Of a stretch of 64,000 bases of DNA, positions 20,279 to 33,839 are shown piece after piece. The notes below the pieces were generated by a model that saw nothing but the letters and a program-made list of their open reading frames with translations, did no database searches and was not told the origin of the DNA. A program made the translations under genes and the position numbers. The stretch comes from Candidatus Bandiella woodruffii (lineage in GTDB: Bacteria; Pseudomonadota; Alphaproteobacteria; Rickettsiales; Midichloriaceae): positions 496,001 to 560,000 of the forward strand of contig NZ_CP110820.1 of NCBI RefSeq assembly GCF_034359465.1, read 5' to 3'. Every line of letters starts with the position of its first letter. Positions within the stretch are counted from its first letter, which is position 1.

Positions 20279-20537
20279 ATATTTGATAGTCGTTATATAT
20301 GCGCTATGATCAATCATAACTCCCTTAGGATTGCCAGTTGTACCTGATGTGTATATAACATATGCTAAATTCGCCCTTAATCCAATGTTTCTAGGATTTG
20401 CATGAGGTTGTTCTCTCAATTTTTCTAACGTTTCGTTGTGGTCGATCGCCAATATACTAACCATTTTGTTAGCAAACGTTGTATCAATGATGCTTTGTAT
20501 ATCTTGCTTATATATTTTATTGGTTAATACTACGTTA
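20279..20537 (-). pseudogene. NRPS adenylation-domain fragment
   Basis: A piece of about 85 codons of an amino-acid adenylation domain of a nonribosomal peptide synthetase. The diagnostic core motif A3 is intact: YVIYTSGTTGNPKGVMIDH. The stretch before it (SNVVLTNKIYKQDIQSI) fits the usual upstream region. It is cut at both ends: the 5' side by the IS-B copy at 20538 and the 3' side by the end of IS-C copy C1. It is the only remnant of the synthetase in this window and sits among other NRPS-associated genes (26476-33655). Confidence 0.85.
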
Positions 20538-21371
20538 GATAATGTCGTCATGAGATTTTAAGCCAAAGAGATAAGCATCTAATCTGAATTGCGGCAAGAA
20601 AAGAAGCTGAATTTTTAGCATATCTGGTTGCAATTCCCCTCCATCTTTTAAGATGAAGAAAGGTGTTTTCTACAATATGCCTTATTTTGTATAAATCTTT
20701 ATCGTATTTTCTCTGGGTGATTCTGTTCTTTTTAGGAGGAATAACAACTCTCATGCCCAATTCTTGGGCATGGTCAATTATGTAATTAACATCGTACCCT
20801 CTGTCGGCTAGTAAGTACTCAGCTTTCATCTCTTCAATAAGATTAACAGCCTGCTTGCAATCAGCTTCTGAGCCTTTTGTGATAATAACTTTGAGTGGCA
20901 TACCATGTGAATCCAAGGCAAGGTGAATCTTTGTATTGAGCCCCCTTTTGTACGACTCATATCTTGATTGCCGCCTTTTGCACCTGAAGCATGTGGATGC
21001 ACTTTACTATGACTTGCGTCTATCATTAACCATTCCATATCAGGTTCTTTCACAAATATCTCCAATAAAGCCTCCCATATCCTTTTGTCTCTCCATCTGC
21101 AAAATCTTTTATGTGTATTTTTCCATCCTCCATATTCTGAAGGCAAATCTCTCCAGGGAGAACCTGTTCTTAATATCCAAAATACTGCGTTAATGAATCT
21201 TCTGTTATTATGTGCCAAACCTCCCCACGTACCTTCCCTTCCTGGTAAATGATCCTTTATCAAATCCCACATATTATCTGTTATATCATGCCTATGTAGC
21301 CCTAAATCCATTTTTACTCCTGATTTATCTTTTCTTTCATATTATATCACAAATCTCATGACGACACTATC
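20538..21371 (-). mobile_element. IS-B copy B1 (IS5 family, IS427-like)
   Basis: 834-bp element with inverted ends GATAATGTCGTCATGAGA / GATAGTGTCGTCATGAGA, flanked by TA on both sides. The left neighbour is the NRPS fragment. The right neighbour is the interior of IS-C copy C2, which lacks its first 45 bp at exactly this point. The missing 45 bp are not on the left, so B1 sits on a recombination junction. Confidence 0.9.
20548..21311 (-). CDS. IS-B transposase (IS5 family) in two overlapping frames
   Basis: The first frame starts MDLGLHRHDITDNMWDLIKD at 21311. It carries the N-terminal DUF4096-type domain and the first catalytic aspartate in MIDASHSKVHPHA. The second frame gives LNTKIHLALDSHGMPLK, LADRGYD (second Asp) and the VENTFLHLKRWRGIATRY end with Glu. 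The switch is at CAAAAGGGGGC; a -1 slip restores one protein. Identical in B1-B3. Confidence 0.87.
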
Positions 21372-22063
21372 TAAGGAAGTTTGGACCATGGTCTAAAAAA
21401 ATTAACAAAAAACTGGTTTCCCCAAGAATTCAAAAGATTTCTTTGAGGTGGGATATGGTAATTTTTAGCTTTTTATTGATTCTGCGAAGCGTGATTTTAT
21501 GAGCTTAGGCAGTAAGAACCGTTAAACGTTTTAAATTAAAGCAGATAGCATTCATAAATTCAGCAAACTGATTTTTGGCAATTCCTATGTATCGCAATCG
21601 TTTATTATCTTGAGAAAACACCCTCTCAAACGGAGCCCTTATGGAAGTATAGTATCGATCAAGGTCAAAATTCTTTTGCTTCATATTGTTTTTCTTGATG
21701 GCGCAAAAATGAATACCTCTGCTTTTAGCTGCATTCTTTGCTGGTGCAACACAATACCCTTTGTCAGCATAAACTGCTCCACTATTTGGTAAAACATGCG
21801 CAACTCCCTTTGCATCGGTAACATTAGCAGGCGTTATAGCAACCTTGTTGATCATTCCGGATTGAATATCTACGCTTACATGTTTTTCTTATAGCCATAC
21901 CAAAATTTACTACCACCCTTGCACCCTATTTTGGCTTGTTTATCATGTGCGACTTTAGGCAAGACTTCGTTGTTAAGTTTTTCATATTTTTGTTTTCTGG
22001 CTTCATCCCGCTCTTCCCATAAATTAGCTTTGGAGATCAAGTGACTTGCATCAACAAAAGTAG
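21372..22063 (-). mobile_element. IS-C copy C2, truncated at both ends
   Basis: Internal 692 bp of IS-C in minus orientation. It starts 45 bp inside the element (junction with B1) and ends where IS-A copy A2 begins. It contains all of the second transposase frame (21505-21879 region) and the end of the first. The rest of the first frame is missing on the far side of A2. Confidence 0.88.
21505..22063 (-). pseudogene. IS-C transposase fragment
   Basis: Carries the C-terminal half of the IS-C transposase: VDASHLISKANLWEER through the frame break, then MINKVAITPANVTDAKG to the end. The N-terminal 130 or so residues are lost, so it cannot be active. Confidence 0.85.
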
Positions 22064-31264: not shown

Positions 31265-32740
31265 AGAGTACTCTTATATATTAATTAGCCATTCTTTCTT
31301 GCCAAAAAGACGTTCACTTTCTATATCGTTTTTGCGGCACATCGAAATAAGATTATCTGATTCTATTATCTGCGGAGAATCAGGCGAATAATTAAGACCC
31401 ATTACGTGATTTAACCATGGTTCTTGGCCCATTGCGTAAACATAGACTTGTTTGCATTTTAACTTTTGTATAATAGACCATGCTTTGCTGCAATTAGACC
31501 CACATAAAGTTCTGCTACGGTCAAATTCTCTGCTTAGTTGGTTTGTGAGTAATGCTCCATACACCCATGTTAATGGTGCACCCTCACACTCCATGCCTAT
31601 AAAAAGCATTTCTATAGGACCAGTAATATTAAAAATATGATCGTATAAATTCTCAGCTAGGTTGTTGGAATCAGCGGCAAACAATAATCTTTTGCCACGT
31701 ATATTCACGCAATAAGATAGCTTTGTTCGAATATTCAAATCACAGTGTTCGCCCAAAAAAGGTATGGTTAAAATTTCTCCATCTGTAAACTTTATAGTCT
31801 CTAATTCATCCATTTCTAATAAAGAACCAAAGCCGACATGCTTTAAAATTAGTTTTAGTGAGGGATCTGCTAACGTTCCCTTTTGATTGCTTGGAAAAAC
31901 TATATTTCGAACCTTATGCCTTAATTGTAATAAAGTTTCAAACATTACGTGATCTAAATGACTATGCGTAATGACCACGTAGTCTATAGAGTCTGGCAGA
32001 TCATCGAAGCTATATCTGGGGATGTTGTTTTCCACAGCATAACTAATAACGGGATCAAAAAGAATTGAGGTAGAAGCTGTCTCAACTAAAACGCAGGCAT
32101 GACCGAAATATCTAATTCTAACCCCATCTCCCTGATAATTCCTATCATCATTTTGTTTGGGAATATCTGTTGTGAAAAACGATTCAAACAGAGGAGCCTG
32201 ATGATCTGTAATATCTAATAACTTGATCAAATCTTGCAGTTCACATGGGTATTGTCGATGCTTAAAAAATACGTCCCATCTTTGATCAGAGAAGGGAATT
32301 TGTAAATAGATTTCATCATCCTGGCGGACTCTTGGTGTGCTAAAGACAAATTTTCGAAAATCTCCATCAATCTTGCTAAGAGCTATCTCTTGATGATTAT
32401 CGGTGTAATAAAACCTGTATATCAAAGATTCCATAAGACGTATAGAAGGATGATTATTTAAATCATACACAAGCTCCACAAATCCCTTAAGCATATCAGG
32501 GACGCGCTCATAAAAGGATTCCAAAGAACTGCCCTTAGCCTCGTTTAATAACATCTTGTCTAGCTCTTTTATAGAATCACCTAAAGCGATTAATGTTTTG
32601 CAGTTTTCTTTAGTTTCTTCTATAAGCGCCTTTATTTCATTAGTTTTCTCCCTTTCTAAGTCGATAAATGGTCCCCTATCATTTTAGGATCTTTTACGGC
32701 ATATGCATGAATTTTTGGATTTTGTACATATGACTTCATT

Positions 32741-33544
32741 ATTTTTAGCAGAGTGTTAGCCAAAGATAGATATAAAATTGCCCTGCTCACTTAGGAAATT
32801 ATTGTTATCCTCAAAATGTACCCAGAGCTTAATCGTAAGATCGACAACTTCTTCAGATTTTGAAACTACCTTTGTTTTTCTGGTCATTCTTGCAATTCTG
32901 TGCCTTGTGTTTGAGTTATTGGACTCAATTGAGAGTGTATGTTGTTTGCCAACAACATGTTGATGGCGAGGTATAACCTCTGAATAAACAGACCAATCGT
33001 CTGTGTAATAACTGCAATTATCTCTACTTATGATTTTCCACAATTTTCTAAAGGTTGTAACGTTACGCTTACCAACCACCCAGGCAACAACTCTCTTGAG
33101 CTCCCTACTATAGGCTTTCCATATCCATAATTTGTTTTTTTTTGAATCTACAAAATGCCACATCTCATCTATTTCAACTTCTCTCAATTCTTCCGGCACT
33201 ATTGGTCTTGGTATCTTTTTAGCATACAGTATTATCCACTTATATACGCTAGTATGAGCTACTTTAAATAATTTCCCTAGCCATCTAAAGCTACTTTTTC
33301 CCATGCTGTACAATAACACTGCCAGAGCCTTCATCTCTGGCGAACAGCCTCTTAATTTAGTGCTTGTAAAATTACATCCACACTCTTTGCATTTATACCT
33401 TTGCATACCCCTAATATTACCATTCTTAACGTATTTACTGCTACTGCATTTTTTACACTCTGTATTCATATTTCTATTTTCTTTGTTGCTCGCTATATTC
33501 ATTTTAGCATCTTATCTATCTTATGGCAACACTCCCCTTTTTAG
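32741..33544 (-). mobile_element. IS-A copy A5
   Basis: Element 32749-33536. Flanks ATTTTTAG and CTTTTTAG agree in seven of eight bases. It interrupts the hydroxylase gene after its 40 or so first codons; the disrupted protein reads through correctly once the element is removed. Confidence 0.93.
32756..33502 (-). CDS. IS1-family transposase of A5, single fused frame
   Basis: The only copy in which the slip run is nine A, so both halves form one 248-residue protein without frameshifting. Zinc-ribbon Cys, HTH, DEMW (D112), TDDW (D168/D169) and SIESNN (E193) are all in one chain. It could supply active transposase to the other copies. Confidence 0.9.
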   Translation of the reverse strand: MNIASNKENRNMNTECKKCSSSKYVKNGNIRGMQRYKCKECGCNFTSTKLRGCSPEMKALAVLLYSMGKSSFRWLGKLFKVAHTSVYKWIILYAKKIPRPIVPEELREVEIDEMWHFVDSKKNKLWIWKAYSRELKRVVAWVVGKRNVTTFRKLWKIISRDNCSYYTDDWSVYSEVIPRHQHVVGKQHTLSIESNNSNTRHRIARMTRKTKVVSKSEEVVDLTIKLWVHFEDNNNFLSEQGNFISIFG

Positions 33545-33839
33545 ATGCCTTTCGATAATATTGCATCCAGCATTTACTGGAGGCAATAGTTGTGGCCATG
33601 CATACCATCTCCAAATAAGTGGTTCGGCTTTTATGGTAGATTTCAAATAATGCATAATCAGCTTATAATTTTTGATTTTATAATAAAATATTATAGTTAT
33701 GACATAAATCATATTAGTCAAGCAAAAATAATCAAAAGCTACTACGTAACACTGAATGGCGAAATCATAAAAGAGAAAATTGGGTTAGTCATAGTCATAT
33801 ATATACCTCTCGTAAACTAAGAGTTAGCAAATTTATAGG

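Follow-up and report, generated by a model that had tools for sequence, protein, structure and literature searches.

Few Rickettsiales carry natural-product clusters, and neither a product nor a role is known for any reported to date. Clusters built on nonribosomal peptide synthetases (NRPS), or on NRPS combined with polyketide synthases, have been described in Rickettsia buchneri (PMC6300072) and in 'Candidatus Megaira' and Torix Rickettsia (PMC9098888, PMC10132079); NRPS go unmentioned in a 2025 review of Holosporales. Here, we analysed a window of 64,000 nucleotides of the Candidatus Bandiella woodruffii contig NZ_CP110820.1 (all coordinates are window positions), in which five gene families lie between 20279 and ~33660: an NRPS adenylation-domain fragment, an Sfp-type 4'-phosphopantetheinyl transferase (PPTase), an AsnB-type glutamine amidotransferase/asparagine synthase, a pyridoxal-phosphate-independent Asp/Glu-type racemase and a CmlA-type diiron beta-hydroxylase. 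The original prediction, made from the DNA letters, had named these five families at these places, and Pfam and NCBIfam matches far above chance bear it out. We are confident that the five genes are what is left of a single nonribosomal-peptide cluster that was acquired horizontally and wrecked not long ago, and that clusters of this type circulate among bacteria that inhabit eukaryotic cells.

The described systems share parts of this arrangement. The 'Ca. Megaira' genome MegNEIS296 (PMC9098888), taken here as our genome G163 (G163:C1), also belongs to Rickettsiales and carries a CmlA-family gene upstream of an NRPS, with a PPTase in the region; on this identification, one published Rickettsiales NRPS genome also has CmlA beside NRPS. 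It differs from the window in that its CmlA is distant (47%), its NRPS is intact and no racemase or AsnB match is found in the region. The RAGE-B insertion of R. buchneri (PMC6300072) is likewise a horizontally acquired NRPS in a mobile-element-rich Rickettsiales genome, but it is a polyketide synthase hybrid on a conjugative element with tra genes, and neither a racemase nor a hydroxylase was found in the text of that paper. CmlA (chloramphenicol) and FrsH (FR900359) hydroxylate the beta carbon of carrier-bound amino acids (PMC7794379). The window CmlA belongs to the same diiron beta-hydroxylase family and keeps the metal-site residues, and its best solved relatives are 8a90 (a non-heme diiron monooxygenase) and 4jo0 (CmlA); unlike these known genes, however, it is interrupted and frameshifted. 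We found no paper describing the combination of CmlA, racemase and AsnB in a search that left most subscription journals outside.

In the window, the CmlA, racemase and AsnB genes form a head-to-tail series on the minus strand (CmlA, 155 bp, racemase, 22 bp, AsnB), and each carries one copy of a 787-bp IS1-like insertion sequence (IS). The three copies are 98.6-99.9% alike and are bordered by 8-bp target duplications, exact at AsnB and near-exact at the racemase and CmlA. The CmlA gene starts at 33537-33660 (minus strand, end approximate; MHYLKSTIKAEPLIWRWYAWP.., PF18456 2.5e-9), is split by an IS1-like copy (32750-33536, minus) and resumes in its main part (31274-32749, minus), which contains a frameshift near 32674, so that its frame is broken by one insertion and one frameshift. 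Its domain make-up is CmlA_N (PF18456, 2e-39) joined to a metallo-beta-lactamase fold (Lactamase_B_2, 6.8e-11). In a 9-sequence alignment, the His and Asp of THSHLDH and the GEH and ADS motifs are invariant, residues that we take to form the iron site. The racemase gene (Asp_Glu_race 3e-21) suffered a single insertion (29691-30477, minus; target duplication gcttttat) and no further damage, leaving an N-terminal part with the ACQTAH motif (30478-31119, minus) and a C-terminal part with the GCTE motif (29468-29690, minus). Both active-site Cys are kept, one per half, and the N-terminal piece alone passes the TIGR00035 cut-off (95.5 bits vs 93.1). The racemase stop sits 22 bp ahead of the AsnB start.

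Damage to the other genes ranges from slight to nearly complete. The AsnB gene (27923-29446, minus; Asn_synthase 3.7e-54) keeps Cys2 (MCGI) and the PP-loop SGGIDSS, and scores 311 bits against a TIGR01536 cut-off of 267. An IS1-like copy at its 3' end (27136-27922, plus; 8-bp target duplication ttttataa) takes off only the last ~20 residues; this tail (KNSTERLQLNT.., ending in KNSTERLQLNTKLREEFLVN and the stop) is still readable on the far side of the IS (27062-27135, minus) and is conserved in both intact relatives described below. AsnB had been counted among the damaged genes, and it is indeed hit by an IS, but it is nearly whole. The claim that only the transferase had escaped damage did not hold: the PPTase (26440-27045, plus; ACPS PF01648 2.9e-12) emerges from an 838-bp IS (25602-26439, minus) that removed its N-terminus, ~25-35 residues compared with relatives. 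The remaining frame retains the (I)GGDIE and W..KKEA..K motifs, the catalytic Asp/Glu and the features of the ACPS-superfamily fold. Of the NRPS itself, exactly 257 bp remain (20279-20535, minus; AMP-binding 9e-14), covering the A2-A3 region with YTSGTTGNPKG, between a 1201-bp IS that truncates the fragment downstream (19078-20278, plus) and another 838-bp IS, with TAGATAATGTCGTCATGAGATT termini, that truncates it upstream (20536-21373, minus). The best NCBIfam model is TIGR01733 (amino-acid adenylation), with a score far under the full-length cut-off, and substrate prediction is impossible because the specificity pocket lies beyond the end of the fragment.

On a 1.13-Mb contig of a nearly complete 1.225-Mb Rickettsiales genome, the block is flanked by genes for an Mrp-type ATPase (18008-18808) and for an ATP/ADP-translocase-like protein (35012-36442). 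Sequence repeated in the window makes up ~54% of the DNA between these two genes and 19% elsewhere. This setting bears on whether contamination or mis-assembly brought foreign sequence into the block. Such an artefact would fit the fact that the genome is known as an assembly alone, and that the CmlA frameshift falls within a short single-base run, a common site of sequencing errors; it is contradicted, however, by the position of the block between housekeeping genes of a 1.13-Mb contig and by the IS families that cut it, which recur at 8.5, 41 and 59 kb of the window, and we regard it as highly improbable. Because the damage is light and the frames are otherwise open, the loss of the cluster was probably recent.

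A search of the 1.225-Mb genome revealed no Condensation domain, no second adenylation domain and no thioesterase over the cut-off, and the sole PP-binding match is a small ~90-aa protein outside the region, probably the fatty-acid acyl carrier protein. When NRPS proteins of two relatives were compared with the genome, the only matches were the window fragment and, weakly, a 308-codon frame in another place that is perhaps the housekeeping formyltransferase; save for this weak match, neither the window nor the genome holds a remnant of the formyltransferase-started NRPS found in relatives. Within the window, queries with the open frames of 21 relative loci recovered no cluster remnant past the five genes, the other matches being an Rpn nuclease and one 27-residue stretch at 17591-17671. 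The region had no match at the DNA level in plasmid records, and AsnB and the racemase only had matches of 29-39% there. The original prediction had counted a genome free of other NRPS sequence against a former cluster. The genome is indeed free of it, but since intact clusters of the same genes exist elsewhere, we read this as loss and not as absence of a former cluster.

These intact clusters, which we regard as the decisive evidence, were reached through AsnB. No close AsnB relative was found in the whole order Rickettsiales or among 385 alphaproteobacteria, and close relatives only surfaced in a search of 57 CmlA-carrying genomes. In this set, two metagenome-assembled genomes (MAGs) stand out, G735 (recorded as Caedibacter sp. 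38-128) and G732 (AlinenLipids bin-7672), with E values of ~1e-194 to 1e-196 and 56-59% identity (58% for the G735 and 56% for the G732 cluster), the next best being 1e-67 at ~36%. In both MAGs (G735:C15, G732:C23), AsnB directly follows the racemase (~46% identical to the window racemase) as a tight pair in the window order. The contig of the pair (13.7 or 26 kb) also carries an ABC exporter, a PPTase-like gene and, next to each other, CmlA and an NRPS that opens with a formyltransferase domain. In G735 the PPTase and exporter are confirmed by Pfam; in G732 the PPTase is identified by matching that of the window, the exporter by sequence resemblance. All five families, adenylation domain included, are thus linked in intact form elsewhere, and a racemase-AsnB pair sharing a contig with CmlA is found in the window, G735 and G732 alike. 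These clusters differ from the window in being intact, with the NRPS and the exporter present; their CmlA is 52% identical to the window CmlA and belongs to another subclade, and the gene order between blocks differs. An AsnB-like gene near halogenase and NRPS genes in Streptomyces cellulosae was also considered and set aside as too distant.

Within Rickettsiales, the claim that such clusters are rare proved correct, although they are not without precedent: CmlA_N is present in 8 of 344 genomes, with the window genome the only one of its family, and a condensation domain in 21 of 344. Among named genomes, the nearest CmlA proteins (60-63%) belong to Holosporales, Caedibacter, Paracaedibacteraceae, Rickettsiaceae and Rickettsiales MAGs, followed by cyanobacterial and acidobacterial ones at 50-53% identity. 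In two Rickettsiales genomes, G164 and G227, the racemase gene adjoins those for CmlA and for an NRPS containing A, T and C domains. A racemase this close to that of the window occurs in 3 of the 344 genomes, the window genome and these two, where it adjoins CmlA/NRPS; that all three fall among the 8 CmlA-positive genomes has a chance of 8e-6, or 4e-4 excluding the window genome. The CmlA proteins of G164, G227 and a third genome, G005, in which a PPTase lies beside CmlA, are 61-63% identical to the window CmlA and are its nearest relatives in the tree. Unlike the window, these clusters have an intact multimodular NRPS and no adjacent AsnB, and G164 and G227 have extra aminotransferase III and FGE-like genes.

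Several further loci touch on this association. In seven loci of alphaproteobacterial symbiont MAGs (L040, L045, L046, L047, L018, L139 and L141), a formyltransferase-started NRPS comes after CmlA, with a gap or another gene between the two in L040 and L047; CmlA with such an NRPS seems to be a widespread, undescribed cluster core. Partial or broken-looking second CmlA copies lie near the main CmlA/NRPS region in G163 (G163:C1:80655-81197, in L014/L016) and in G005 (L024:9843-10905), both Rickettsiales, so that CmlA decay may be recurrent. The NRPS cluster of G120, a member of the same family as the window genome, was considered as a counterpart of the lost cluster and rejected, since G120 has no CmlA and no racemase match. 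This genome does carry a giant intact formyltransferase-started NRPS beside an ABC exporter-like gene: three NRPS frames of ~3600-3700 codons, one of them formyltransferase-started, with a beta-eliminating-lyase-type enzyme nearby (G120:C1:822000-881999, L151-L153).

Gene trees were used to ask whether the genes share one donor, and the answer is mixed. The window AsnB groups with G735/G732 (100/99), and so does the window racemase (92/91), the five symbiont racemases forming one clade (100/99) against six plasmid-borne ones. The window CmlA instead groups with G005/G164/G227 (100/99), in a wider clade of alphaproteobacterial, mostly host-associated or intracellular lineages; an approximately unbiased (AU) test rejects its union with the G735/G732 CmlA (p = 0.0115), whereas union of the racemase with G164/G227 is not rejected (p = 0.067). 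Racemase and AsnB therefore agree on their nearest relatives and CmlA does not, and no single sampled donor passed on all five genes as an unaltered block. Such discordance would be expected if at least two separate acquisitions had ended up side by side by chance, one a CmlA/NRPS cluster and the other a racemase-AsnB operon of its own origin, serving D-aspartate or asparagine metabolism; the pair is indeed as compact as an operon of its own. Against this, the best racemase-AsnB pairs lie within ~5-11 kb of a CmlA/NRPS block, close Rickettsiales relatives of the racemase occur only beside CmlA/NRPS, and the CmlA, racemase and AsnB genes of the window are in head-to-tail order. We judge separate acquisitions unlikely. 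The nearest relatives of all three genes belong to NRPS clusters, in bacteria that are intracellular or probably so, and the simplest reading is one cluster type with a mosaic history.

Besides this partial discordance between the CmlA and the racemase/AsnB trees, three other points weigh against a single former cluster. Its NRPS amounts to only 257 bp, with an IS on each side and ~6 kb of separation from the closest of the other four genes; being so small, IS-flanked and distant, the adenylation fragment is assigned to the cluster by kinship and proximity. AsnB beside CmlA was not found in other Rickettsiales clusters. The PPTase tree is too poorly resolved to place the diverged window PPTase. 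Still, the proposal of one NRPS cluster lost during IS expansion stands up well, with an IS in each gene and intact linked relatives in G735/G732 and G164/G227.

A different question is whether anything at the locus still works. AsnB, without its ~20 C-terminal residues, and the PPTase could be functional enzymes serving another purpose: the AsnB frame is open over 514 codons with the catalytic Cys2 and the PP-loop, the PPTase frame is open with its catalytic Asp/Glu, and the genome holds no AsnB-type match besides that of the window. Yet both intact relatives conserve the tail that AsnB has lost, the PPTase has been deprived of its start, N-terminal residues and native upstream region, and the genome offers an Sfp-type PPTase no carrier-domain substrate past the one small PP-binding protein. 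We consider such residual function quite unlikely, and a dead cluster remains our preferred explanation.

The relatives and the known enzyme families suggest how the intact pathway may have operated, and it is from them that the step order, substrates, product, exporter and time of loss are read. AsnB-type enzymes transfer amide nitrogen. The window racemase matches McyF, which provides D-Asp or D-Glu for microcystin, as enzymes of this family do. The Sfp-type PPTase would arm the carrier domains, and the NRPS modules would then activate amino acids, starting, as in the relatives, with an N-formyltransferase domain. CmlA would add a beta-hydroxyl to the carrier-bound aminoacyl group, the racemase would supply a D-acidic (Asp/Glu-type) amino acid, the AsnB enzyme would move glutamine nitrogen onto a carboxyl group, and the ABC exporter would take the product out. 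IS elements later took out almost the whole NRPS and disrupted every accessory gene, so that the pathway is dead. Read by hand, the A-domain specificity codes of the related clusters look like codes for Asn, Asp, Thr and Gln. The lost peptide may have contained D-Asp or Asn, as the original prediction suggested. More tentatively, and with slightly less than even chances in our estimation, these clusters make one family of peptides that are N-formylated and beta-hydroxylated and probably include Asn/Asp-type residues, and they move between unrelated intracellular bacteria (Rickettsiales, Holosporales-like and Legionellales), the window genome being caught just after the loss.

The wreck itself is ordinary genome decay, a snapshot of IS expansion ending a biosynthetic pathway in a shrinking genome; the intact cluster type is the interesting part. 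Together with its intact relatives, the locus defines a recognisable type common to several intracellular bacterial lineages: CmlA and an NRPS that opens with a formyltransferase domain, joined in some by the racemase-AsnB pair. This gives a direct route to the product and to testing host defence against action on the host.

Other features of the window and of the genomes compared stand apart from the cluster. Between the adenylation fragment and the PPTase lies an intact Rpn-type PD-(D/E)XK nuclease/transposase gene (22999-23925, plus), which we regard as a mobile passenger and do not think part of the peptide cluster; a homologue (29%) is found upstream of the CmlA gene on G164:C4 (L028:4714-5598). 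Elsewhere in the window, the putative halves of one GGDEF/EAL-like signalling gene (57923-58486 and 60443-61123) are split by IS copies, possibly another casualty of the same IS expansion. Finally, one Rickettsiales genome contains an NRPS open frame of 13,278 codons (G215:C1, ~1297033-1325415).

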